From IMG/VR virus record IMGVR_UViG_3300007346_000170, positions 1 through 27,689 of that record: a DNA stretch of 27,689 nucleotides. One strand, written 5' to 3'. The DNA comes from a virus. The position numbers and the translations under genes were made by a program. Of this stretch, positions 3,220 through 25,194 are shown in pieces (positions within the stretch are counted from its first letter, which is position 1; the number at the start of each line of letters is the position of its first letter). The notes under the pieces were generated by a model. That model saw only the letters and a program-made list of their open reading frames with translations. It was not told the DNA's origin and did no database searches.

Positions 3220-3377
3220 TCTTGTAAAGGAACAAACCACCACACCGTTCCACCTTGTTCTTCTACCCAATCACGAGTTGCAAGTGCGTTGTTCTTACTT
3301 AGAGTGACGCACTTTTTTTCGTCTTTAAGTTCCCAGCACATATTGACGCGGATGTCTGGATCTTTTTTGCATTTCAT
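3216..3377 (-). CDS. Small hypothetical protein coupled to the endolysin
   Basis: A 53-codon gene whose ATG (3377-3375) forms an ATGA overlap with the endolysin stop. A longer reading from 3437 is possible but would lie inside the endolysin gene, so the coupled start is preferred. The protein contains three cysteines (residues 3, 14 and 23) and ends in a tryptophan-rich segment (GGTVWWFVPLQD). No transmembrane segment is visible. Coupling to a lysin suggests a lysis-related role, but the family is not recognised. Confidence 0.65.
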   Translation of the reverse strand: MKCKKDPDIRVNMCWELKDEKKCVTLSKNNALATRDWVEEQGGTVWWFVPLQD

Positions 3378-4495
3378 TTTGAGACAAGGATCGCCCACCC
3401 CGTGTTTTTGCCGTCGCATTCCCAGCGCCTCAACCAATTTTTACGGCTGTACTGTACTGCAGTCCCACGCTTGCGGTCGTTGCTGGTATAGCCGCCATTG
3501 AGCATATCAGCCTCCCCGTTGGGGTCATGGAAGACAAAGGCATCGGGTGTGAATCCAATGCAGCATGTCCAGTGACCACCACCTGTGGGATAGGAGACGT
3601 TTCCTTTATGTAGCCAACCGACAGCAACGGGTCTGTTATTACGGATCTCGTTCTCCAGTAGGGCTGAATTGCCATTGGTAATAAACTTTGCAGTGAGTCC
3701 CAGGCTACGCAGAGCTGCTAATTGAGCATCTTTACTGGTTGTATCTCCATATTTACTGCGGATTGCATTGTATTCATCATCGCTTTTTACCTTGCCGTAA
3801 TAGCGTGCGATCATGGCACAGGTAGAAGAAAAGCATTCACGGTAACCAGTACCTGACTTGTTGTCGAGTTGGTATTCGTAAGGAACGGTCAGTATTTTTT
3901 CTTTGCTATCTGCTGGTATTTCACCACCAGGGGTACCAAGTTGTTTGTCGAGGATCTGAATTAATTTGGTGCTGTAATCGGGATCAGTAGCGTAACCTTC
4001 TTTGACTAATAGTTGACAGCACTCATTACGACTATTGGCACGGTTAACGCCCTTAAAACGACCAAAGTCTTTGTACCAGCGATCAACCAAGTAATAGATT
4101 GCTGTTGCTAAGTCCGGGAAGTTAATAAAGCCAGCTTGGATTGTGATCCATTGACCATTAATGAACTCTTGTGTATTAACGACGTTACCAGATCCTTTCA
4201 ATCCAAATGCGTTCCAGGCACCAGAGAAATGCTGGCCCCAACCTGATTCGAGTGCCCACTGAGCACAAATGCATTCAGGGAATTTAGCCCCTGCTGCCTT
4301 GGCAACTTTATAGACGCCGTCCCAGGTGTTGTCATTACTTTCAGGTTTCTTAGGAGGTTCTGGTTTAGTTCTGTATTTTGTTGCAAAGGTATCTAATTGT
4401 TCTGCCGTTAAAGCTGACTGCAACCAGTCCCAGGCCTCCACCTGATGTGAAAGCTCCTGATAGAACTTAGCAGCATCGGTAAGTTTAATAGCCAT
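3374..4495 (-). CDS. Endolysin: glucosaminidase plus C39-like peptidase
   Basis: This 373-residue protein has two catalytic regions. Residues 57-185 look like a FlgJ/GH73-type N-acetylglucosaminidase: the ALESGWG motif supplies the likely acid Glu83, followed by the FGLKG and Y-L-V-D-R-W elements of this family. Residues 203-360 resemble a papain-fold C39-like peptidase, with candidate Cys221 ahead of TCAMIARYYG, His308 in GGGHW, and Asp324 in FHDPNGE. An N-terminal helix (1-40) and a Pro/Lys linker (44-53) precede the enzyme domains. It would cut both the glycan strand and the peptide stems of the host wall. It has no signal peptide, so release would need a holin. It may equally be carried on the virion, since fibre genes lie just upstream on the same strand. 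Confidence 0.88.
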   Translation of the reverse strand: MAIKLTDAAKFYQELSHQVEAWDWLQSALTAEQLDTFATKYRTKPEPPKKPESNDNTWDGVYKVAKAAGAKFPECICAQWALESGWGQHFSGAWNAFGLKGSGNVVNTQEFINGQWITIQAGFINFPDLATAIYYLVDRWYKDFGRFKGVNRANSRNECCQLLVKEGYATDPDYSTKLIQILDKQLGTPGGEIPADSKEKILTVPYEYQLDNKSGTGYRECFSSTCAMIARYYGKVKSDDEYNAIRSKYGDTTSKDAQLAALRSLGLTAKFITNGNSALLENEIRNNRPVAVGWLHKGNVSYPTGGGHWTCCIGFTPDAFVFHDPNGEADMLNGGYTSNDRKRGTAVQYSRKNWLRRWECDGKNTGWAILVSK

Positions 4496-4520: not shown

Positions 4521-6407
4521 CTACGCGCCCTTGAGCGCTTGGACTTCGGCTTCTAGGGTTTCGATGCGGGTGAATGCTTCCTGCAGCGCCTTCACTGCCT
4601 TCATGTAGAGCACTGAATAGTTGACGCTCTTGGTAACCGTGCCAAGGTCGTTGCCTTCTTCGTCGCGGTCAGGGGATTCGCTGACAAGACCAGGAGAGAC
4701 AAGTTCAACCTCTTGGGCGATTAGACCGATTTGGGTGTGGGTCTGGCCTTCTTTGAAGTTGTACTTGCGGACTTGGAGAGCCTTAAGATCGTCCCACTGG
4801 GAGCCGGCGTCGACGATGTTTTCCTTCAGCTTGATGTCGGAGATAGCGCCGTATGAGTTATTGGTGTTGACTACGTTTCCGTTTGTGTAAACCGCAAACG
4901 AAAGCGTGCCAGTATTAGTGTTTGTTGCACTGTGCCGTCCGATGTAAAGATATTCGCTGGCGCTGGCTGCAAAAGAAGAACGCGAATTTAGCGCACCTGC
5001 ATCCACAAACATGTCCACGGTTCCACCCGAACGGATCCTCACCCGCTCGACTGGCGATGCGCTGCCATCGGGCGTAGTGGAGAACACTAACTTGCCCGGC
5101 ATATCACCAGAACCGGGAGTGCCGTCTGCTGCGCCTAGAATTGTTGCGCCAGTTCTGAACTGTGTTCCATCTGAGCCTCCGAAATTGATGTGACCAAAGG
5201 CTTGATCACTGGATACAACTGAGTGACCGCCTACTGTGTTGCTTTTTGAAGCGCATAAATCTAGGTTTGGCGCATATGCCGAAGATGAAAAGTTATATAC
5301 GCCAAAACCGTTATTTACACTGTTTGTAGCAGTTGCGACGTATTCCACCCTTGTAGGTGTGGCTTCAGATTCATAGGCGTTTCTTGTGCTGGAAAACGCC
5401 GTAGACGTGCCAACTAACAACCTGCCGGAGCTGTCGATGCGGGCGCGTTCATTGTTCCCGTTTGTGCCAAAAACTAACGCATCATTTGTGCCAGTATGAA
5501 TAATGACTTCATCTGCCGTTGCGTTACGGATTACAATGTTTCCTGAGTTCTTTCCAGTAAATCTAACTATATCGTTTCCGGAAGCAGATGCAGCATCCAC
5601 CTCCAATGGCATGCTGGGACTCGTAGTGCCAATCCCTACGTTGCCCGAAGATGTAATACGCATTACGTCGCCTGATCCTCTGCCTCTGAATGCGTGGGCA
5701 TCAGCGTCGTAAAGATTTAAGTTTGAACTTCCGGATAAGTATCCAATACGAATGCCATTTAAGTTTGCGTCTACAACGTGAAGTTTTGAATCAGGGCTAC
5801 TAGTCCCCAGACCTAAACGGCCACTGGAGTCCAGGCGCATGCGCTCAGTTCCTCCACCAGCAGCAAATACAATGTTTGCCTGAGACCTAATTCCGAAGTC
5901 AGCCTGGTTGCCTGATGCAAGAACAGCGTTTGCGTTGCCAAGGTAACCAGCAACAGAGGTGCCGTCATTCTGTTCCCAACGGTCGTACAGTTTGTGAGAA
6001 ATAACTCCGGCGCTGTTAATCTCAAGACGACCAGTGCCATTAGTCGAGATGGCTACTTGGTCTGCGCCTGGGGAGTAAATACCGGTATTTAGGTCTCCGT
6101 TAAAACTTACAGAAGGAGCGCTTGCACTTCCTGCGCCAAAAGCACCAACACCGTCAACGGTTAATAAAGAAGCTGGGCTTGTTGTTCCAATGCCTACATT
6201 GCCACCATCAAAATAGATATCACTACCACTCGTCACCCACTGACCCGCTGGATCAGAAGTCCAAACTAAATTGCCACCTGCATCCAGACCAAGGACCTGA
6301 CCGTTGGTACCGCCCGTCGCACTGAGCTTCGGAGCTGTAACAGCTTGATCAGCGATATTGCCGGTTTCAACGGCAAAAGACGTGAGGACGTTACCGATGT
6401 AAGGCAT
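4521..6407 (-). CDS. Tail fibre/spike with C-terminal S74 chaperone domain
   Basis: This 628-residue protein ends in a Peptidase_S74 intramolecular chaperone: the SDIKLKENI motif near residue 526 carries the predicted self-cleavage Ser, followed by the KYNFKEG and QIGLIAQEVE boxes and a C-terminal coiled coil (about residues 605-628). In this family the chaperone helps the fibre trimerise and then cuts itself off. The body contains degenerate VGIGTTSP units (with LGLGTSSP and LLVGTST variants), typical of trimeric beta-rich fibres. There is no obvious virion-anchoring N-terminus, so it probably binds the end of another fibre, perhaps the repetitive protein encoded upstream. It begins 2 bases after the preceding stop. 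Confidence 0.9.
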   Translation of the reverse strand: MPYIGNVLTSFAVETGNIADQAVTAPKLSATGGTNGQVLGLDAGGNLVWTSDPAGQWVTSGSDIYFDGGNVGIGTTSPASLLTVDGVGAFGAGSASAPSVSFNGDLNTGIYSPGADQVAISTNGTGRLEINSAGVISHKLYDRWEQNDGTSVAGYLGNANAVLASGNQADFGIRSQANIVFAAGGGTERMRLDSSGRLGLGTSSPDSKLHVVDANLNGIRIGYLSGSSNLNLYDADAHAFRGRGSGDVMRITSSGNVGIGTTSPSMPLEVDAASASGNDIVRFTGKNSGNIVIRNATADEVIIHTGTNDALVFGTNGNNERARIDSSGRLLVGTSTAFSSTRNAYESEATPTRVEYVATATNSVNNGFGVYNFSSSAYAPNLDLCASKSNTVGGHSVVSSDQAFGHINFGGSDGTQFRTGATILGAADGTPGSGDMPGKLVFSTTPDGSASPVERVRIRSGGTVDMFVDAGALNSRSSFAASASEYLYIGRHSATNTNTGTLSFAVYTNGNVVNTNNSYGAISDIKLKENIVDAGSQWDDLKALQVRKYNFKEGQTHTQIGLIAQEVELVSPGLVSESPDRDEEGNDLGTVTKSVNYSVLYMKAVKALQEAFTRIETLEAEVQALKGA

Positions 6408-6822: not shown

Positions 6823-8793
6823 TTAGCCAAGAGCAATTGCGTAAACAATTGCGGTGTTATCAGCGTAAGCCTGGCTGGCAACATTTGAACCACTAACCTG
6901 AAGAGTAGTGGAGAACAAACCGCTAGCACCAGTGATTGTCGTACCTGAAACCGTTGTGAAGTTCGCGGTCGTACCTGTGACTGTTGTTCCAGTGATCGTG
7001 GTAAATCCTGCGGTATTACCAGTCAGGGTTCCAAACTGACCTGCATCACCAGTGACGACTGCCCCAGAAAGAAGCGACGTAAAACGACCACTAACAACAA
7101 GAAGGTTCGAGAATCCACCAATGAGACCTTCAACAGTTGCACCAGAGATAAGGGTCGATCCGGTGATGTAAGCCGCGTTGACGTTTGCGAATGTGGCTGT
7201 TGTACCAGTAACGGTCGTGCCTGTGACGGTCGTGAATCCAGCGGTGTTACCTGTCAGTGTTCCGAACTGGCCTAGGTTGCCGGTCACTGTTGCGCCGGAA
7301 ACACTGGTGGTGCCGATGACTGTGACACCAGTTACGGTATTGAACTGACCAGCGGTGAACTGAGCAGTTGTCCCAGTAATGGTTGTGCCAGATAAGGTGC
7401 CGGTGATATTGACATCCTGACTGAAGAACCCTGTACCTTCAACGATCAGGTTGCCGGATACCGTTAAATCACCTGTGACTGTATGACCAGAAGTGATAAG
7501 GGTTTTGAAATTACCAGTTGTAAAGTTTGCGGTCGTGCCAGTAACAGTCGTACCGGAAACCTGAGTTGTGAAGACGCCGTTAACAAAGTTGGCGTTGGTG
7601 CCGGTGACTGTGGTTCCGGTAATTGTCGTGAACCCTGCTGTGCCACCAGTGACGGTTGTGAATTGTGCCGTCGAGCCTGTGAAGGTTACGCCACTAACCG
7701 TGCCGGTAATGCTGACACCGGAACCAAAGAAGCCTGAACCATTAACAAAGATGTCACCCTGTACGGTTGCATCACCAGTAACAGTGATGTTCTCTCGAAT
7801 AATGCCGGTGGTGAACGTTGCCGTAATGGCGTTCAGTGTTGTGAAATTACCAGTGTTACCTGTAACGGTTGCACCAGAGACACTGGTTGTGAAGACACCG
7901 TTTGTGCCGGTAACGGTTGTGAAAAGACCAAAGCCACCTGTTACGGTTGCACCCGAAACCTGAGTGGTGCCAATGACGTTGACACCGGTGACATTGGTGA
8001 ATTTAGCGCTGGTACCAGTGATGGTGGTACCGCTGAGCGTACCAGTGACATTGACACCGGAGCTGAAGTAACCAGAACCAAGGACGCGCAGGTTACCGGT
8101 AACGGTCAGGTTGCCACTAATGTTATGGCTACCAGCGTTGAGAACCTGGAAATTACCAGTGGTGAAGTTAGCGGTTGTACCTGTAACCGTGGCACCGGAA
8201 AGGGTATTGGTATAGACGCCGGTAACGCCTGTAATGCTGCCAAATGCACCAAAGTCACCACTCAAGGTTCCGGCATTGAGGCGGTCGTTAACCGTGCCGC
8301 TACGGATGATGAGGTTACCGAAGGCACCAGTAACACCAGTAACGGTTAGACCAGAAACTCGTGAGGTGAAGGTACCGGAAACACCGGTAATTGACGTTGC
8401 ACTAAAACCAGAGGTGGTGAAGTTAATTGAGTTAATGTTTGTGGCATTAACGTTGGTACCCGTAATGGTGGTACCACTTAATGTGCCACTGATCGTGGTA
8501 TTGCCAGAAACAAAAAGAACACCAACTGTTCCTGTATTGGTTACCGCCAGGCCAGAAGTGGTGGTCTGACGTTCAACCGTTAGGTTTTCTTGAATTGTAA
8601 TTGAGCCACTAACCGTCCCACCAGTGCGGGGGAGGTAGTAAACATTGAGGTATGCCTTGGTGCCAGATATCGTTAATTTCTTATTTTTAATCGCCGGATC
8701 AACCTCGGCAACCTGCACGACGGTGAGCAGGTCCGCCTCCGCTAGGTTGATACCAGCGATCTCCTGTAGCTCAGATATCCGTCTGTTAGCCAC
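6823..8793 (-). CDS. Highly repetitive tail fibre-like protein
   Basis: This 656-residue protein starts at GTG (8793). The N-terminal region (residues 1-55: ISELQEI, then LLTVVQVAEVDPAIKNKKLT) resembles the virion-anchoring N-termini of cyanophage fibres. The rest is built almost wholly from short Gly/Thr/Val units such as VTGTTVTGTTANFTT, which suggests a long trimeric beta-helix or beta-spiral. Longer modules recur, each with a run like GNLTVTGNLxVxGxGFF followed by ITGTLSGTTITGT. It ends in AYADNTAIVYAIALG and has no S74 domain. The protein is probably the shaft to which the S74 fibre attaches. Confidence 0.85.
   Translation of the reverse strand: MANRRISELQEIAGINLAEADLLTVVQVAEVDPAIKNKKLTISGTKAYLNVYYLPRTGGTVSGSITIQENLTVERQTTTSGLAVTNTGTVGVLFVSGNTTISGTLSGTTITGTNVNATNINSINFTTSGFSATSITGVSGTFTSRVSGLTVTGVTGAFGNLIIRSGTVNDRLNAGTLSGDFGAFGSITGVTGVYTNTLSGATVTGTTANFTTGNFQVLNAGSHNISGNLTVTGNLRVLGSGYFSSGVNVTGTLSGTTITGTSAKFTNVTGVNVIGTTQVSGATVTGGFGLFTTVTGTNGVFTTSVSGATVTGNTGNFTTLNAITATFTTGIIRENITVTGDATVQGDIFVNGSGFFGSGVSITGTVSGVTFTGSTAQFTTVTGGTAGFTTITGTTVTGTNANFVNGVFTTQVSGTTVTGTTANFTTGNFKTLITSGHTVTGDLTVSGNLIVEGTGFFSQDVNITGTLSGTTITGTTAQFTAGQFNTVTGVTVIGTTSVSGATVTGNLGQFGTLTGNTAGFTTVTGTTVTGTTATFANVNAAYITGSTLISGATVEGLIGGFSNLLVVSGRFTSLLSGAVVTGDAGQFGTLTGNTAGFTTITGTTVTGTTANFTTVSGTTITGASGLFSTTLQVSGSNVASQAYADNTAIVYAIALG
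6900..8610 (-). repeat. Degenerate internal repeats of the fibre gene
   Basis: Units encoding T-G-T-T-V-T-G-T-like peptides recur dozens of times, and a longer module (encoding a GDLTVSGNLIVEG-like segment plus ITGTLSGTTITGT) appears in full three times, with a fourth, divergent copy near the N-terminus. The DNA copies differ mostly at third codon positions, so selection has kept the protein pattern. The repeats create long false frames on the plus strand. Confidence 0.8.
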
Positions 8794-13324: not shown

Positions 13325-13978
13325 CTAGGTAGCAAATAGAGAATCCAGCTCTTCAGAGCAAAGCGGAATCCATGGACTTTCAGAGATCCGAAAGTTGTTG
13401 GCAAATTCGGCAAGGACGTAAGGGTTAATATTTTCTTCCAACATCCTGATGGCACGTACCTGGTGCGGTGCAGCGGAATAGTTCCTGAATGCCGTCATCA
13501 AAACTTCAGTGGAGGTCCAAGGGGAGTCATCAGTTTCCCGTAGGAACAAAGCAACTTCTTCCCGGCGACGATCCAAGAGGCCGCCAATGACCTCGTGGTT
13601 CTCATTAAAAATCCAGCTCATCATTTCGTCAGCTGCTTCTGCCAAATCGTCGCGTTCGATGGCATCAACGATATTGCTGTAAAGGAATGGAGTCCATCCA
13701 ATGGAGTGGATGAAAGAGATCAATGCCTGTTGCATCGAATGATCAAGATGCAAGTGCAGGCTATCCAACAATGAACAGATAGCTTTGATTTCATGAGCAA
13801 GGTACTCCAAGGCTTTCTCCTTGGTACACCACTGCCCTTGTTTGACGGGGCTACCGTCTGGGTAGTACTCAGTACCGTATCCGACTATGTAGCCAGATCC
13901 ATCCCCAGACGGATATGCTTTTTCGCTAAAACCTTCGTACTTACGAATAAGTTCTACGGCTTCCCGAAATTCGCCCAT
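13325..13978 (-). CDS. T4-type lysozyme (GH24)
   Basis: This 217-residue protein has the GH24 pattern: KYEGF with catalytic Glu15, GDGSGYIVGYGT with Asp26 and Thr36 in the places of T4 lysozyme D20 and T26, and GGLLDRRREEVALFL at about 140-155, the typical C-terminal helix of the family. About 60 further residues (157-217) follow the enzyme domain and are not explained by it; they may bind the wall or the virion. It is the second lytic enzyme in the window and has no signal peptide. It lies 34 bases downstream of nblA's start on the same strand, so the two may be transcribed together. Confidence 0.88.
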   Translation of the reverse strand: MGEFREAVELIRKYEGFSEKAYPSGDGSGYIVGYGTEYYPDGSPVKQGQWCTKEKALEYLAHEIKAICSLLDSLHLHLDHSMQQALISFIHSIGWTPFLYSNIVDAIERDDLAEAADEMMSWIFNENHEVIGGLLDRRREEVALFLRETDDSPWTSTEVLMTAFRNYSAAPHQVRAIRMLEENINPYVLAEFANNFRISESPWIPLCSEELDSLFAT

Positions 13979-14154: not shown

Positions 14155-14454
14155 TCACCACTTTACTTTGTGAGACCAGTACCTGGCAGACATTTTGTCG
14201 GGATCAGGATCTTGGGCATTGTGCCGAGCGTAGTAGGACTTTTTGCGGGCTTTGTCCTTTTCTGTGGTTGGGTTTTTGCCTGCACCCTCTACGCCTTGTT
14301 GGCCAAACCGTACGATCTTTTCCTCGCCTCCTTCACAAGCTTTAACAACGTGTGATTTAGTGGCGTGGCCAGGAGTACGACGAGGCTTGTTGCACTCCAT
14401 GTCATCTTTGGCAAGCTTGGCTGCCTTGGCTGCTTTCTTACGTTTATCTGACAT
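14155..14454 (-). CDS. Small basic protein with RFGQxGxxGAGKNPT motif
   Basis: A 99-residue basic protein. The N-terminal 18 residues are Lys/Ala-rich, then CNKPRRTPGHATKSHVVKACEGG, then the striking KIVRFGQQGVEGAGKNPTTE box (46-65) and KARKKSYYARH, closing with MSARYWSHKVKW. This layout resembles small basic proteins common in marine and freshwater phages (DUF5872-like); no biochemical role is known to me. The start overlaps the stop of the 1117-residue gene (TAATG), so it is translationally coupled to a large virion gene and may itself be packaged. Confidence 0.75.
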   Translation of the reverse strand: MSDKRKKAAKAAKLAKDDMECNKPRRTPGHATKSHVVKACEGGEEKIVRFGQQGVEGAGKNPTTEKDKARKKSYYARHNAQDPDPDKMSARYWSHKVKW

Positions 14455-17400
14455 TAGAGACCTTTAAACATGGAAGTGAACTCACCGAGGAATTTCTGAC
14501 CTGCATCAGACATGTATTCAACATCTTCCTCGTCGTCTTCTCCAATTTTAAAATAGCTTGTGAACTTTTCAGCAGGTGATTGTTCTTTTGCTTCTTTTTC
14601 TGCCTCTGTTTGATAATCCGGGAAGAAGCTTTCGATCGTGCCAAGAGAAGCAAATGGATCAGAAAGATCTAGGCCATAGGCCTCTAGCTTGTCATCACGA
14701 CCTGCTTTGGTGAGGGTAATCTGCTCACTACGGTCCAGGTCAGGGAAAAAGTTGTTGTAGAACTCGTCTTCTGTTCCTTGGTACCCAGCTTTTTGGAAGA
14801 TGGCATAAAGCTCAGTAGTGGGCTTTGCCATCTCATCTTTATAGTCTTCTGCTCTTTCGATGTAGGTAACACCGAGAATTTCTTGTGTTGGCCGCTGACG
14901 TTTGTCGTTCAGGTACTTGATCTCTTCTCTGATCTCCTGGGCAGAACCCGTACGAAGAGTCTCGATAATGTACTCTTTCAGTTCTTCAATGTTTCCAGCA
15001 AAGTCTTGTAAGCCATAACGTTGCAAGATTTCCTTCCATTCATCAGGTGTCTCGGCTGGATCCAAGCCTCTCAGCATCTCATCGGCAAATTCTTCTGGGG
15101 TGATGAACTGACCAAAGACTGGATCGCCCTTCAAGGCTTCATCCTTCATCACAGGAAGAACAGTGTCATAAATAAAGTCTTTAACCTTACCGGCGTTAAC
15201 AATATCTTCTGCGGGGTCAAAACCTAGACCTTGGCCCTTCACCTCAAAGTGCATGCGTGCAAACGCTGCCTTGTTATTGATATCAATGCCAAATCTGTAG
15301 GCTTGTGCCGCCCAGTAAGCATCGCCAGATTTTGCTTTCTCCCAATCTTCTGCAACGGTGGTCTTTTGTTTTTCGTAATCTTCTTTGTTGTAACTATCAG
15401 TAATAGGTTCAAAGTAAAAATTAGGGTCAAATGCCCTGGGGGTCTCAAGTTTGATCTTGTCGAGATATTCTTTTGTATATTGCTCACCCAACATCTTCAC
15501 GGCGTCATAGGAGTCCTGCGTCTGGAAGGGGTTCTTTTCTTCCTGGCGAACATCCAGATATTCAACAAACTCGTCCATTGAACGAGCGGTGTTAAAACGA
15601 GGCATGAGATATTCGTCAATATAGTCACGAGCAAACTGAGCCTCGATGTTCATTGCTTGGGTGACATCACCAGCGGTGTAGGTCAGTGCCAAAGCGCGAT
15701 CTTTCTGTTCGTCTAGGAGCTTGATGTCAGCTTCAAGGCGGGATCGGATGGGCACCAAGGTTGTCTTTGCACCGTCTCCTGGATCTCCTTTAATCACATC
15801 AAGAATGGTTTGACCTTCTGTTCCTTGTTTCTGCAGGAAATCAACCAGGGCTTGCGTACTGGTAAATCCTGCACGATCTAGAAACTCTTTATTGAATTCA
15901 TTTGTAGCCGCATCGTAAACCTTGGCTTCCGTTGCTGGGCTATTAAAAGCGTCAATAATATCTTTTTTCTCTTCCAGTGGTTCAAAGATGCTGTAGTCAA
16001 TTCCGTATTTATCCTTAATAGCCTGGTCGAACCATTGCTGCCAGTTATAGCCAACGTTGTTGCGTAGGCCAGTGACGTTACCAAGAGCGCCTACAAGATC
16101 TTCTTCTGCTTTACCTGCTGAGGTGAATGAGAGGATACCACCTACTCCAGTGTCTCCAAGGATTGAGTTGGCAAGTGTTTCGTTAATGTTGAAAATTTCA
16201 TTAAAACCTTGGAAGCCTTTGTAGAAGCCAAGCATTTCTTGCTCAGCTTTTACTTTCTTCATTTGCGTGATTGTTTCTTTAAGGATGCTTTGGTTTAATG
16301 CCGCAAACTTTTTGATGTCAACTTCTGCCTTGGCACCAATCGCATCGTTGATTGCTTGCTCCAGTTCTGTGATACCGCTGCCTGCATTGATGTTGTAGTT
16401 GAGCGCGATTTGCTTGTCTTCGTCACGTTCTGACAAGCGGAAAAGCACCGCAAATTCATCAGCGTTCTCCACGTCCAGGTACTTTTCTTTTGCCAAGGCT
16501 GTCCAGTAGGGATCTCCTTGCCGGGCCTTAGTCCATTCGTTATTAACTTCTGTGATGTTTAGAAGACGTTGGGTGATAGTGTCCTGGTCTACACCAAGCT
16601 GCAGGTCTCGAATCTGCTGGATTTCCGCATCAGTAGGACCTTCTTCTATGTAGGAGTCTGCACGAGCTGTGTCTTCTTCTGGGTTACCGCGTAACCCCTG
16701 GTTTCGACCAATGTTTGTGTAGTGCTGCCAGTAGTAGTTGTTTTCGCCATAGCGTTCAGTGATATCAATATCATCATTAAGAACTGCCTGGGAGTAAGCG
16801 GTGATCAGCTCTGGGTTTTGTTCTTTGTAGTAATCAGGATCAAATGTGCCCGTTACAGCGTCTGGTTTGACTCCTAAATTATTAATCAGGTAATCAGCGT
16901 AAGGAGGCTGGGCGCCAAGCTTTGGATCCCAGAGTTCCAACTTTTCTGTTTTATAGAACGTTTTGAACTGTTCTTGAACACTCGAAACCAATGCGTCGGC
17001 ATCTGCTGAAGAAACACCAGCATTAATCAAATCTTGTTTACTGATCTGATCACGTTGCGCAACATAGTCTCCTCCCTGCGTGCTCTTTGCTAATGCAAGA
17101 GTTTTGGAGTAGAGATTATTTTTGGCTGTGTTCTGAGTGTTTGTAGCAGTGTTTTCTGCATTCAGCTGAGCGTTCTTTGCGTTTAAGTCGCGAGCTTGCT
17201 GGTTAAGAGTGGTATTTGTGGTGTTAAGCGTTGCATTGGTTGTGTTTGTATTAAAAATGCCCGTGTTCATTTCTTTAACACGTTCATTTTGTTTTTGAAT
17301 ATCTACGTTTGCTGTCTCATTGTTTAAGTTGGTTTGTGCATTGGCAGCATTAGTCTGCGCATTGGCCACGTTAGTGGCATGGTTGGCGTTATTCTTTTGT

Positions 17401-17807
17401 CTGTTTTCTCTGTTTTTGTCTTCATCATCAACCCATTTAAACTTTTCAACATCAGAGCAACGCCGACGCCACCAAGGACCTTGGCAAACGCGTTCCCAGC
17501 CGTCTGAAACTTTCTTTTTCTTGTCTGTTGGATAATCAGTTCGTAAATTTGTAGGTAAATTAGTCGGTAAATTGGTTGGTAAGTAGGGCATAAAGCCCAC
17601 CGAACCATAGTCAGTTGTGGTGTGCCAGCCGGTTACCCACTTCCTACTATTAGGATCCCAATAGGTTCCATAAGTATGGTATGCGTTATTGGTCGGATAA
17701 TCAGTGCGACGACTGGTGTCGTTGTTGGTTTCGTAATTAGTTCTATAGTCAGTCCTCTCGTTGGTAACGCTCCAGGATAATGTTGAGGGGTTATACGCGA
17801 TACCCAT
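14454..17807 (-). CDS. Very large virion/internal protein (1117 aa)
   Basis: The largest gene in the window. Residues 15-100 are low complexity (repeated T-D-Y and T-N motifs, four PTNL-type units), with WDPNSRKWVTGW and a CQGPWWRRRCSD cluster nearby. Residues about 130-250 are Asn/Thr/Gln/Ala-rich and look like a long helical stalk. Residues 270-1117 are a helix-rich acidic region with repeated segments such as DPYWTALAKEKY and DAYWAAQAYRF (about residues 440 and 850), which hint at internal duplication. There are no transmembrane helices or enzyme motifs. Size, helix content and place at the end of the virion block suggest an internal, ejected or tail-length protein, but no family is recognised. 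Confidence 0.85.
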   Translation of the reverse strand: MGIAYNPSTLSWSVTNERTDYRTNYETNNDTSRRTDYPTNNAYHTYGTYWDPNSRKWVTGWHTTTDYGSVGFMPYLPTNLPTNLPTNLRTDYPTDKKKKVSDGWERVCQGPWWRRRCSDVEKFKWVDDEDKNRENRQKNNANHATNVANAQTNAANAQTNLNNETANVDIQKQNERVKEMNTGIFNTNTTNATLNTTNTTLNQQARDLNAKNAQLNAENTATNTQNTAKNNLYSKTLALAKSTQGGDYVAQRDQISKQDLINAGVSSADADALVSSVQEQFKTFYKTEKLELWDPKLGAQPPYADYLINNLGVKPDAVTGTFDPDYYKEQNPELITAYSQAVLNDDIDITERYGENNYYWQHYTNIGRNQGLRGNPEEDTARADSYIEEGPTDAEIQQIRDLQLGVDQDTITQRLLNITEVNNEWTKARQGDPYWTALAKEKYLDVENADEFAVLFRLSERDEDKQIALNYNINAGSGITELEQAINDAIGAKAEVDIKKFAALNQSILKETITQMKKVKAEQEMLGFYKGFQGFNEIFNINETLANSILGDTGVGGILSFTSAGKAEEDLVGALGNVTGLRNNVGYNWQQWFDQAIKDKYGIDYSIFEPLEEKKDIIDAFNSPATEAKVYDAATNEFNKEFLDRAGFTSTQALVDFLQKQGTEGQTILDVIKGDPGDGAKTTLVPIRSRLEADIKLLDEQKDRALALTYTAGDVTQAMNIEAQFARDYIDEYLMPRFNTARSMDEFVEYLDVRQEEKNPFQTQDSYDAVKMLGEQYTKEYLDKIKLETPRAFDPNFYFEPITDSYNKEDYEKQKTTVAEDWEKAKSGDAYWAAQAYRFGIDINNKAAFARMHFEVKGQGLGFDPAEDIVNAGKVKDFIYDTVLPVMKDEALKGDPVFGQFITPEEFADEMLRGLDPAETPDEWKEILQRYGLQDFAGNIEELKEYIIETLRTGSAQEIREEIKYLNDKRQRPTQEILGVTYIERAEDYKDEMAKPTTELYAIFQKAGYQGTEDEFYNNFFPDLDRSEQITLTKAGRDDKLEAYGLDLSDPFASLGTIESFFPDYQTEAEKEAKEQSPAEKFTSYFKIGEDDEEDVEYMSDAGQKFLGEFTSMFKGL
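17542..17582 (-). repeat. 12-base tandem repeat in the large virion gene
   Basis: Three and a half copies of a 12-base unit (plus strand GGTAAATTNGTN) encode repeated P-T-N-L in the N-terminal low-complexity part of the 1117-residue protein. Such a short in-frame repeat can gain or lose units by slippage without breaking the gene. Confidence 0.75.
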
Positions 17808-21702: not shown

Positions 21703-21990
21703 TTATACCGAGCCCGGATTCAATCCGAACTCTTGTACAAGACTCATGTATTGATTAAAACCTTTTGGATATTTAACTGCTTCTGAGTACAAAGAAGAAG
21801 GATTTCGTTGGAGATTAAGGAACCGCTGGAAGGATTCTCCAGACATGGTATCTTGTTCATCCGGGTAGAACTTGACGTTCTTTTTTGCTTGCGCTAATAC
21901 CTTGTAAAAAGGGTTGGTGCTCGCAGCGCCATAAGTGCTGCGATACACCTCACCTGGTAGATACTTATCGGCGTATTCGATATAAGCCAT
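21703..21990 (-). CDS. Hypothetical virion-operon protein (95 aa)
   Basis: A 95-residue helical protein, many Tyr and Lys; its ATG overlaps the stop of the transglycosylase-like gene (TGATG). Nothing specific is recognised. Placement and coupling suggest a partner of the muralytic protein or a small neck component. Confidence 0.72.
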   Translation of the reverse strand: MAYIEYADKYLPGEVYRSTYGAASTNPFYKVLAQAKKNVKFYPDEQDTMSGESFQRFLNLQRNPSSLYSEAVKYPKGFNQYMSLVQEFGLNPGSV

Positions 21991-22646
21991 CAGAAGAGCT
22001 TGCCGGGATTTTGGAAACCTACCGTGGTGCCGAAAACACCAGGGACTGTGGGGACCTGAAGAGCACTGCGAAGCAATTGCTCCACGATGTTCTCCTTTAC
22101 GCTGCCGAGTAACGATTCAGCACGTTGCTTACGCTGTGCAGTCGTCGTCGGATTCTTGGCAACGGGAGCAACTGGGGCTTGGCCACCAAACTCTGCTGGA
22201 ACGTCGCCCAGGACCCGCTGTGCGTTGGCGTAGTAATCCCCGCCTTTTTTGAAACGGGGCAGCATCGATTGGACTGATGTTCCAAACGAATCTTCCGCCG
22301 TCAACGAAACATTGGGATTCCCACCTAATACGGTTGCATAGGCACGAGCGATACCCATGCCCGGCTTGTAGCCACGATCTTGAAAGTACTGAAGAACTGC
22401 TGGCATTTGACCGGCTCTGGTTTGAGGGCCAGAGATTCCGTATAGCTGCTGCTCATTCTGTCCAAATTGGATCAGACCTTTATGGCGATTGCCAGCACCA
22501 CCCACAATGTTGGGGTCCATGTTCGGACCGGCTTCCAAGGAAAGGAAGGCGCCGAATTCGTAAGGATCTAAACCAAGGCGCTTGGCACCTTGCAAGATTG
22601 CCATACGTTCTTCTGGGGGAAGAATTCCGACTCTTTTAGGTGCCAT
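21990..22646 (-). CDS. Virion transglycosylase-like protein
   Basis: A 218-residue protein. The start at 22646 is fixed by a perfect AAGGAGGG at normal spacing and a TAATG overlap; a longer frame to 22712 is not needed. Residues 23-70 fit a lysozyme-like/transglycosylase fold: GLDPYEFGAFLSLEAGPNMDPNIVGGAGNRHKGLIQFG, with Glu38 as the probable catalytic acid and the GLIQF motif of lytic transglycosylases. The C-terminal half is Ala/Pro/Gln-rich. Such virion enzymes open the wall locally during DNA entry. Confidence 0.78.
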   Translation of the reverse strand: MAPKRVGILPPEERMAILQGAKRLGLDPYEFGAFLSLEAGPNMDPNIVGGAGNRHKGLIQFGQNEQQLYGISGPQTRAGQMPAVLQYFQDRGYKPGMGIARAYATVLGGNPNVSLTAEDSFGTSVQSMLPRFKKGGDYYANAQRVLGDVPAEFGGQAPVAPVAKNPTTTAQRKQRAESLLGSVKENIVEQLLRSALQVPTVPGVFGTTVGFQNPGKLF

Positions 22647-23929
22647 TACTGGACCCTCCTTTTCATCTTTTCGAGAAGGCTGTACGCAAGTCCAGGATTC
22701 GCCTGAGCCCATTGATTCAAGGCTTCGGTCGTCATCCCTTTCGCACCTCCAAGATCTTGCAGCTGTTGCTGCAGTACTCCACCCTTCAGTAAGCTCCTAC
22801 CCAATTGCTGCTGGCCCTCATAGAAGGAAGAAAGGGGGACACTTGTAGGAGCAGCGTACTGCTGAGCAGCATTAAGTACTTCTTGAGAGAGTGCGCGTTG
22901 TTGAACATTTTCACGTAATGCGGGAACACCGGCCCCGTTAGATCTCGTCCCAGGTGCTACAGGAGCAGCGGGAGGAATCTGTCGTCCGGCACGCCCGTCA
23001 ATCACCCCTGGAGGAGGGGGAAGAACGGGAGCTGGCGGCGGAGTGCCACCAGCAGGAATTGGAGGACCATATTGTTCGGAACCGCGTGCTCGATCACTGT
23101 TCTCAATCTGCGCTTGACGGCTTACGCGCCGAAGCATGTCATCTTTTGACGAGTAACCTAAGCGCTGCCAATTATCGTAAGGATTTTCCGACTGAGGAGT
23201 AGAGCCTTCTAATTGAGTTAATCCAACAATCGTTCCAGCAACTGATGTGGGAGCAACAAGTGATTGCGCCCAGCCGGGCATTGAACCTAAAACAGGAACG
23301 CGAGCAAACGCAGAAGATGGTTGTAAATAAGGTGCTGCAGCAGTACCAAGACTCCTAAACATGCTGCCAACTTGACCAAAACCAGATTGGCCACTTAAAG
23401 CGCGAGCTGCTTTTTCAGTAGTCCCACCAAACTGTTTGATGAATTCGCGACGAGCTGCTGGATCACGAGCAAATTGACCACCTGTTTGGATTGCGGTTTG
23501 CAATGGATTAGTCAGAACAGACTGACCAGCACGCAGAGCGTCACCAATGACAGGGGCACGCAAGGCGCCTTCAGCTGTCTGAGTAACTGTACGAGAAAGC
23601 TGTGGAGCAATACCCGCCGCTTCTTGAATGGCACGATTAACCATGCCAGTTTGAACGTTACGAGCTAAACCAGCTGGTGCATTGGTAATATCAGAGATCA
23701 TCCCCGTGAAGCGAGTAGGGATGTTTCCAAAATTAGGGCCAGAGAAGGCCTGTGGCAATGGCTTCTGAAGCACGCGTTCAGCCTGACCTGCTAATGCGCG
23801 GTAAGTCTGAGGATTAGTTACCTGATCAGTAACAGACTTTAAAGCAGGTGCTGCTTTGGCGCCAAAGCCCTGCACTGCCTTTAGTACTTGAGGATTTGAT
23901 TGAGCAAATTGCCTAAGAAATTTCCACAT
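22646..23929 (-). CDS. Ala/Gln-rich internal virion protein candidate (427 aa)
   Basis: A 427-residue protein rich in Ala, Gln, Gly and Pro. Residues 1-220 look helical and amphipathic; residues 290-345 are Pro-rich (for example PPPAPVLPPPPGV), and the C-terminus is helical again. There is no enzyme motif. It is coupled by TAATG overlaps to both neighbours, the connector-like protein before it and the transglycosylase-like protein after it, an arrangement like the internal core proteins of podoviruses, which are ejected with the DNA. That comparison is by composition and place only. Confidence 0.78.
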   Translation of the reverse strand: MWKFLRQFAQSNPQVLKAVQGFGAKAAPALKSVTDQVTNPQTYRALAGQAERVLQKPLPQAFSGPNFGNIPTRFTGMISDITNAPAGLARNVQTGMVNRAIQEAAGIAPQLSRTVTQTAEGALRAPVIGDALRAGQSVLTNPLQTAIQTGGQFARDPAARREFIKQFGGTTEKAARALSGQSGFGQVGSMFRSLGTAAAPYLQPSSAFARVPVLGSMPGWAQSLVAPTSVAGTIVGLTQLEGSTPQSENPYDNWQRLGYSSKDDMLRRVSRQAQIENSDRARGSEQYGPPIPAGGTPPPAPVLPPPPGVIDGRAGRQIPPAAPVAPGTRSNGAGVPALRENVQQRALSQEVLNAAQQYAAPTSVPLSSFYEGQQQLGRSLLKGGVLQQQLQDLGGAKGMTTEALNQWAQANPGLAYSLLEKMKRRVQ

Positions 23930-24390
23930 TATCGCCAGTTCTCCATTAGGTAAATACGAGAGCCAACAGCAGTGTCAGCGGGTCCAGGTAAAGCCTGAAT
24001 AAATTCAGCGCCGGAGCGTTCGTAACGATAACGAGCCTGGAACGGATCTTTATAGTTAGGAACGTAGAGGATGCCAGCAAGTCGGTTGGTTTCATAGAGA
24101 TAAATCTCGTCCCAAACCTTCAGTGCCTCTTTGGCATTGCTGGAGCGAATCGTACGATCCACGTCACCCAGGATAGTTTCCAACCGGGTGGAAGGAGAGC
24201 TGGCAACCTCGGTCTTCTTCTCAGCCGTATCACAACGGCCGATCTGAATAATAATTTTATCGTAGAAGTACGAGTCGGGAACCGTATTCATTGCTTCTTC
24301 CAGACGGGCATAGTCACCCGCTGGCACAGAAACAGTGAAGTAGCCCAGGTGATACCTGACCCTACTTTTGTCAAAGTCAGATAACTGCAC
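23929..24390 (-). CDS. Head-tail connector/neck-like protein
   Basis: A 153-residue protein starting at GTG (24390), with GGAAGG 6 bases upstream. LSDFDKSRVRYHLGYFTVSVPAGD at the N-terminus, the ILGDVDRTI segment and GPADTAVGSRIYLMENW at the end are of a kind common in cyanophage neck proteins as I remember them; the precise family is not certain. It lies between the M23 peptidase and the internal protein candidate. A role in joining head and tail is an inference from context. Confidence 0.7.
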   Translation of the reverse strand: MQLSDFDKSRVRYHLGYFTVSVPAGDYARLEEAMNTVPDSYFYDKIIIQIGRCDTAEKKTEVASSPSTRLETILGDVDRTIRSSNAKEALKVWDEIYLYETNRLAGILYVPNYKDPFQARYRYERSGAEFIQALPGPADTAVGSRIYLMENWR

Positions 24391-24429: not shown

Positions 24430-25194
24430 TCAAAAGAGATTTCCACCCAGGAACTGACCGGTTGCCAGGGATCCACCTTGGATATACGGGTCTTCACTCA
24501 TGAACTTGCCAAGGAAGTTTTGAGGAGTTAAAGCTTGGCTAATAGCGTTGCCGATAAGGGCTTCTGATAACTGTTTTGAAAGACTCTTGGGCTTTTCTTT
24601 GCGTCCTTCGACTGCTTCAAGAAGAGCATCAACAAGTCGACCTGTATTGTCTTGCTGCTGCACAAAAGCAGTCGCAAGTGCCCCAAGGGATGAATCCGTG
24701 CTGGGTTGGTCTGGTGTGCTCTTGCGTGTCGTAGCAGCACCAGGTAGCTCACTCAGGTGGAATGTCTCAAGTTCGTAGCCACTTGGTAGACGTAGCGCAG
24801 AAACATTACCAGCACCTCCTAGACCGGCATGCGTGCTTACAGACCCTTGGCCAAGAAAGCGTAGTTGAGTTCCAGAGGGCAAAGCATAGTCTTCTCCGGA
24901 GTGCATCCTGCGATCACCATGGACAGGATGAACTTCTCGCATTCCAAAAGCGCTTCCACCTGTAGGTGGTTGCATATAAGGAGCAGAGACGAAATTCCCG
25001 TCTTGCCCTTTGGTATACATGTTGACCCACTGCTCGGATCCTGGAACCCGATACTGCAGGTACTGGCCGACATCTGTACGTGCAGTAGAGAACGGAATCT
25101 CTTTACCGTCTTTCGTTAGTTTGAAATGGAAATGTTCACCGGTTACATCACCAGTGGCGCCTTGTCTACCTAAATAAAGTGCGGGGCCAGCCAT
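24430..25194 (-). CDS. M23-type zinc metallopeptidase with permuted motif order
   Basis: A 254-residue protein with AAAAGG ahead of the ATG. Residues 83-150 form most of an M23 (LytM) domain: FGMREVHPVHG, then HSGED (H98 and D102, the HxxxD zinc motif), a GxG-rich turn and FHLS (H146). The HxH motif that normally closes the domain, within GxxTGxHLHFE, is instead at the N-terminus: VTGEHFHFKLTKDG (17-30), H21 and H23. All expected metal and catalytic residues exist, but in permuted order. Residues 160-254 are helical. Peptidases of this type cut peptide crosslinks in the wall; in the virion block it probably aids DNA entry. Confidence 0.8.
   Translation of the reverse strand: MAGPALYLGRQGATGDVTGEHFHFKLTKDGKEIPFSTARTDVGQYLQYRVPGSEQWVNMYTKGQDGNFVSAPYMQPPTGGSAFGMREVHPVHGDRRMHSGEDYALPSGTQLRFLGQGSVSTHAGLGGAGNVSALRLPSGYELETFHLSELPGAATTRKSTPDQPSTDSSLGALATAFVQQQDNTGRLVDALLEAVEGRKEKPKSLSKQLSEALIGNAISQALTPQNFLGKFMSEDPYIQGGSLATGQFLGGNLF

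Follow-up and report, generated by a model that had tools for sequence, protein, structure and literature searches.

The gene at 24430-25194 of the window (the whole stretch of viral DNA analysed here, 27,689 nt) probably encodes a circularly permuted M23 zinc endopeptidase fused to a helical tail. The protein would be carried by the virion, held there at its C-terminus, and would cut peptidoglycan at DNA entry, and its locus is a slot in which enzyme heads are exchanged. The window comes from a freshwater-type, S-EIV1-like cyanophage; 19 of its proteins match those of Synechococcus phage S-EIV1, mostly in the same order. The open reading frame is complete, starts with ATG, encodes 254 amino acids and lies on the minus strand, which the initial annotation did not state. 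The parts of the gene and the two genes that flank the slot are as follows.

24430..25194, minus strand: gene of the permuted M23 protein (254 aa), with an N-terminal enzyme head and a C-terminal tail
24724..25194, minus strand: enzyme head, residues 1-157, a single domain in the AlphaFold2 prediction (pLDDT 76, pTM 0.72)
25096..25182, minus strand: residues 5-33 (ALYLGRQGATGDVTGEHFHFKLTKDGKEI), the segment that closes a normal M23 domain
25126..25134, minus strand: HxH, with H21 (assigned as catalytic, invariant) and H23 (assigned as zinc ligand; Asp in S-EIV1-type members)
24955..25095, minus strand: new connection, residues 34-80, predicted to be structured (pLDDT ~88-91 for residues 31-70) and conserved in part
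24745..24954, minus strand: residues 81-150 (SAFGMREVHPVHG...HLSEL), the segment that opens a normal M23 domain
24889..24903, minus strand: HxxxD, with H98 and D102, invariant, assigned zinc ligands
24757..24759, minus strand: H146 in FHLS, invariant, assigned second catalytic His
24433..24723, minus strand: C-terminal tail, residues 158-254, a variable linker followed by helices
25263..25691, minus strand: upstream flank of the slot, an HHH motif protein, 82% identical to its S-EIV1 counterpart
23929..24390, minus strand: downstream flank of the slot, phrog_29158, 88% identical to its S-EIV1 counterpart

The M23 motifs occur in the order TGEHFHF (H21/H23), HSGED (H98-D102) and FHLS (H146); HxH comes first, and the normal order (HxxxD, HL, HxH) is absent from the protein. 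The residue numbers given in the initial annotation were correct. It had also placed all of these residues on one zinc site as ligands. All five catalytic residues are indeed present, but H21 and H146 do not correspond to zinc ligands. In M23 enzymes, zinc is bound by H(x)nD, through both its His and its Asp, and by the second His of HxH; the proposed water activators are the first His of HxH and a His ~30 residues before it (PMC9662197). By this scheme H98, D102 and H23 are assigned as ligands, and H21 and H146 as the water-activating histidines. The first His of HxH, H98, D102 and H146 (the last corresponding, in its HL context, to H260 of LytM) are invariant in sets of 45 sequences, 70 aligned heads and 69 thinned, slot-based heads. 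The whole H21-F22-H23 pattern, as HxH, is found in the window protein and 47 other distinct slot proteins, and Asp replaces H23 in most S-EIV1-type members.

Profile searches revealed that the two halves of an M23 domain are present in swapped positions. In native order the Pfam M23 score is 28.2 bits, below the cut-off of 28.7, and residues 96-150 match profile positions 1-55, whereas residues 8-33 align with the closing GxTGxxTGxHxHF segment in PHROG 7767 and in PDB chains. When residues 1-157 were doubled, a single Pfam M23 match appeared, in which residues 96-190 cover positions 1-94 of the 96 in the profile (59 bits, E 5e-16). Doubling the head of two slot relatives raised the Pfam M23 score from 35.4 to 63.6 and from 34.8 to 72.6 bits, and the slot relatives L262 and L250 exceed the Pfam M23 gathering score natively, in two pieces. 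We also built a small, independent profile of normal-order M23 domains and scanned rotated sequences with it. The window head rose from 44.2 to 64.9 bits, with the best cuts all within residues 32-80, and the tape measure domains of Acinetobacter, Moraxella and A. rudis likewise rose, while two normal controls, themselves part of the profile, scored best unrotated. Applied to the 107 distinct permuted slot heads, the scan placed the best cut in the linker every time. All 48 of the HxH heads among them gained more than 5 bits (median 28.7), and the smaller gain of the HxD heads (median 4.2) is explained by their divergence. Furthermore, hhalign gave crossed matches between HxH heads and normal M23 domains (40-154 with 1-97, 99.0%; 1-46 with 89-141, 98.2%). 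Doubled S-EIV1-type (HxD) heads stay below Pfam M23; they match the HxH heads in hhalign at 99.8% (E 6e-28), and it is from this homology and their motifs that S-EIV1-type heads also appear to be permuted.

These results strongly support that the M23 sequence of the window protein is circularly permuted, as the initial annotation had proposed from the motifs. A chance order is excluded, since doubling yields a single Pfam M23 match of 95 residues and more than 100 distinct homologues share the order. A fragment of a larger, normal M23 gene was also ruled out, because in the same frame two codons upstream of the ATG are preceded by a stop (the slot translation starts KDMAG) and no other M23-like stretch was found in the six frames of the 27,689 nt window.

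The homologue in S-EIV1 (AHV82231.1, 'peptidase M23 family') occupies the same slot, covers 92% of the length and has the same permuted order and a related tail. It is only 28% identical to the window protein, compared with 82% and 88% for the flanking genes, and has HLD for HFH; its product name makes no mention of permutation. A first IMG/VR scan from this homologue gave 45 loci, and further loci came from wider scans. In a strict motif census, 101 distinct HxD domains were permuted, and at no locus did a permuted domain occur together with a normal HxH/D. Seven M23 domains in normal order were also retrieved, and these belong to other proteins. A second, normal HxH, which would have spoken against permutation, occurs in no homologue checked. 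The arrangement is thus not the rare single case that it had been taken for: the family that has it is old and diversified, and relatives occur among other tail and virion proteins. The closest relatives of the window protein are HxH heads, up to 69% identical. In a tree, the cyanophage HxD heads cluster together (support 89, which is below the starred level); two changes in total account for the H/D label. Profile libraries detect the family poorly: Pfam M23 fails to match the majority of S-EIV1-type members altogether, and such virion lysins have therefore probably been missed in annotation.

We collected slot loci via the two flanking genes; 258 have both flanks, and among them the slot has 137 distinct contents. 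These comprise 48 permuted HxH heads, 59 permuted HxD heads, 15 heads that are M15-like by motif and 15 others, at least 10 of which are of one unassigned head type. No normal-order M23 was found among the 136 slot proteins read. The M15-like heads (GHSPTGYHPKGLAIDV...HDTHVHLAL, with HxxGxAxD and HxH; L044, L046, L047, L323 and L289 among the loci) have the same tails as the permuted M23 heads. They have no clear Pfam, PHROG or PDB match, and their putative label comes from the motifs and a weak Extensin-like_C match (E 0.13). When heads and tails were clustered separately, one tail type was found with head clusters 0, 1, 2 and 3, a second with 0, 1, 2 and 4, and the window's own with 0, 1 and 4; the last ~55 aa of the window protein are thus of a type common to other heads. 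These mixed pairings indicate that a set of C-terminal tails carries the enzyme head as an exchangeable module. Several permuted M23 lineages, the M15-like head and one further type are interchangeable on shared tails. A third head type in the slot, GFTGPSAKIGGSTDYHIDLK...HPGWQSLDFYVP...RVGHGN (L226, L304, L315, L318, L268), has no Pfam match. It was considered as a decayed permuted M23, since its motif (GFTGPSAKIGG...YHIDLK...SLDFYVP...RVGHGN) is suggestive, but hhalign gave no support and the type is left unassigned.

Besides the slot, the permuted order occurs in large virion proteins. Tape measure proteins of Acinetobacter and Moraxella (pro)phages (PHROG 1506, Pfam TMP_3) carry GISGxSGxxTGxHLD...HxGID...LLHxxP, in the same order as the window protein. 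Here the domain is embedded in 1100-1500 aa and has a shorter linker; it is a self-contained module of ~120 residues in a coiled-coil-like region. Its second HxH residue is mostly Asp (HxD), and A. rudis has the canonical HLH. A scan of genome contigs with a narrow alignment returned only Acinetobacter tape measure homologues and a few normal M23 genes. A decayed permuted stretch (TGPHLDVK...GxDxx...FxHG) forms the C-terminus of the cyanopodovirus virion proteins P60 gp33, DSL-LC07 'tape measure' and S-CBP1_0035. These share the permuted order with the window protein but are strongly diverged, and the His of HxxxD is shifted or missing (missing in P60). BFVD matches of the window model were to P60, S-TIM5 and a tape measure fragment, and P60 was confirmed by sequence. 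PHROG 19560 spans only residues 1-876 of P60 gp33, and the permuted domain there is therefore an added module. We lean towards the view that permuted M23 is an old, separate M23 branch specialised for phage virions. It would have spread to stand-alone cyanophage proteins, tape measure proteins and internal virion proteins, tried Asp as an alternative to the His that binds zinc, and come to occupy, in S-EIV1-like phages, a head-exchange slot where cell-wall enzymes are swapped on shared virion anchors.

The peptidase gene lies near the major head protein gene, in synteny with S-EIV1. This structural-gene location, the tape measure and virion relatives, and a tail on the FHLS end together suggest a virion-bound lysin. 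The C-terminal tail would serve as its anchor, and the enzyme would cut peptidoglycan cross-links during phage DNA entry. The initial annotation had called the protein a phage entry enzyme, and from the genomic context this role is likely. A similar role has been proposed for the virion-associated lysins phi29 gp13 and Tal2009, which, unlike the window protein, have the normal M23 motif order as far as described (PMC9662197). It is rather unlikely that an active permuted M23 serves host lysis at the end of infection or virion maturation instead of DNA entry. The PHROG names of weak matches include 'endolysin', and a location among structural genes is also compatible with maturation. However, the window encodes a separate phage lysozyme at 13325-13978, which is the likelier lysis enzyme, and the closest permuted relatives outside the S-EIV1-like group are tape measure and virion proteins.

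EnvC and NlpD are M23-like proteins that are catalytically dead and play a structural or binding part. The window protein could be such a dead fold, although we regard this as unlikely. Asp stands as the second HxH residue in most S-EIV1-type members, and the cyanopodovirus versions have lost or shifted the His of HxxxD. Because of this Asp, and because P60 lacks the His of HxxxD, some permuted members may be inactive. On the other hand, the window protein and the 47 other distinct slot proteins mentioned above retain all five catalytic residues, and even where Asp has replaced H23 there is no variation at the first His of HxH, H98, D102 or H146. Moreover, the slot also accepts an M15-like head with HxxGxAxD and HxH, which suggests that hydrolysis is the function needed there. 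An active zinc endopeptidase is thus the reading that we prefer for the window protein.

The predicted structure bears on how the two halves would come together. With 45 full-length rows, AlphaFold2 reached pLDDT 70 and pTM 0.54; with 70 head-only rows it gave the values listed above, with both halves in one domain and predicted strands that, once rotated, run in the M23 order. Overall model confidence is moderate, and it is poor for the stretch preceding H98. The connector, put at 50 residues in the initial annotation, comes to ~45 (34-80) and is predicted to be structured; residues 31-70 are among the best-predicted parts of the head-only model. Foldseek searches of the PDB with both models returned no M23 structure. 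This result is uninformative because the aligner is sequential and cannot handle permutations; a nil would be expected of a permutant or of a wrong model. Virion proteins are often oligomeric, and the N-terminal HxH segment might complete the site of a neighbouring subunit in a virion oligomer, so that no chain would be a whole M23. Such a segment-swapped assembly is quite unlikely, as the monomer prediction packs both halves and the structured linker in one domain, and the tape measure module is self-contained within its ~120 residues. An artefact of assembly or of a frameshift, or the remains of two broken genes, is refuted as an explanation: the sole closely matching contig (L001) is DNA-identical and therefore no independent support, but more than 100 distinct homologues on many contigs, isolate S-EIV1 included, have the same order.

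The permuted single-chain enzyme can be compared with the M23 family (PF01551; LytM, ShyA, NMB0315, phi29 gp13), which has the same motifs, the same flanking glycines and, after rotation of the predicted head, the same strand order, but the halves in the opposite linear order. The window gene product would be a LytM/lysostaphin-type domain whose chain starts within what is, in a normal M23, the loop from the FHLS strand to the strand that precedes HxH. This FHLS-to-HxH segment (about Pfam positions 56-67) is intact in the family and is the open point of the window chain, and the linker, which would bridge the former N- and C-termini, is new. The chain would leave the fold after FHLS, so that the small helical tail hangs from the FHLS segment, not from the HxH segment. 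Folding would bring H98, D102 and H23 together around a single zinc ion, and the water would be activated by H21 and H146. We found no link of M23, LytM or lysostaphin to circular permutation in the open literature, although priority is uncertain. The main M23 review makes no mention of permutation (PMC9662197), and the literature matches that mention both terms concerned other enzymes in their matching passages. Natural circular permutation of a catalytic metallopeptidase that is kept across large divergence is uncommon and directly testable; it would mean that the M23 chain tolerates a break in the hairpin that separates its two catalytic histidines. In addition, permuted M23 and M15-like heads on common tails offer a ready means to learn which bond of the cell wall is limiting when phages enter cyanobacteria.

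Several other genes deserve mention. The major head gene of S-EIV1 looks misannotated at KJ410740.1 60784-62010 (L002:9346-10572). The 362-aa major head protein of the window aligns in one frame and at full length (87%) to L002:9496-10569, whereas the record as deposited shows there no more than a 156-aa C-terminal piece and a CDS on the opposite strand. The 427-aa gene at 22646-23929 has no family match and no detectable S-EIV1 counterpart, although the surrounding genes are mostly well conserved, and it overlaps its downstream neighbour in a different frame. The product of 21990-22712, two genes past the downstream flank of the peptidase, has a weak transglycosylase-type match (phrog_28981) and is possibly a second virion cell-wall enzyme. 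At 3374-4495, near the fibre genes, a two-domain protein combines a glucosaminidase domain with a C39/C70-like cysteine peptidase domain. The C-terminal end of the 4521-6407 protein resembles, by eye, an S74-type chaperone, and 6823-8793 encodes a long fibre-like protein with degenerate TGTTVTG-type repeats. The 1117-aa protein of 14454-17807 has asparagine/threonine-rich N-terminal repeats (TNLPTNLPTNLRTDYPT) and matches its 901-aa S-EIV1 counterpart only in part.
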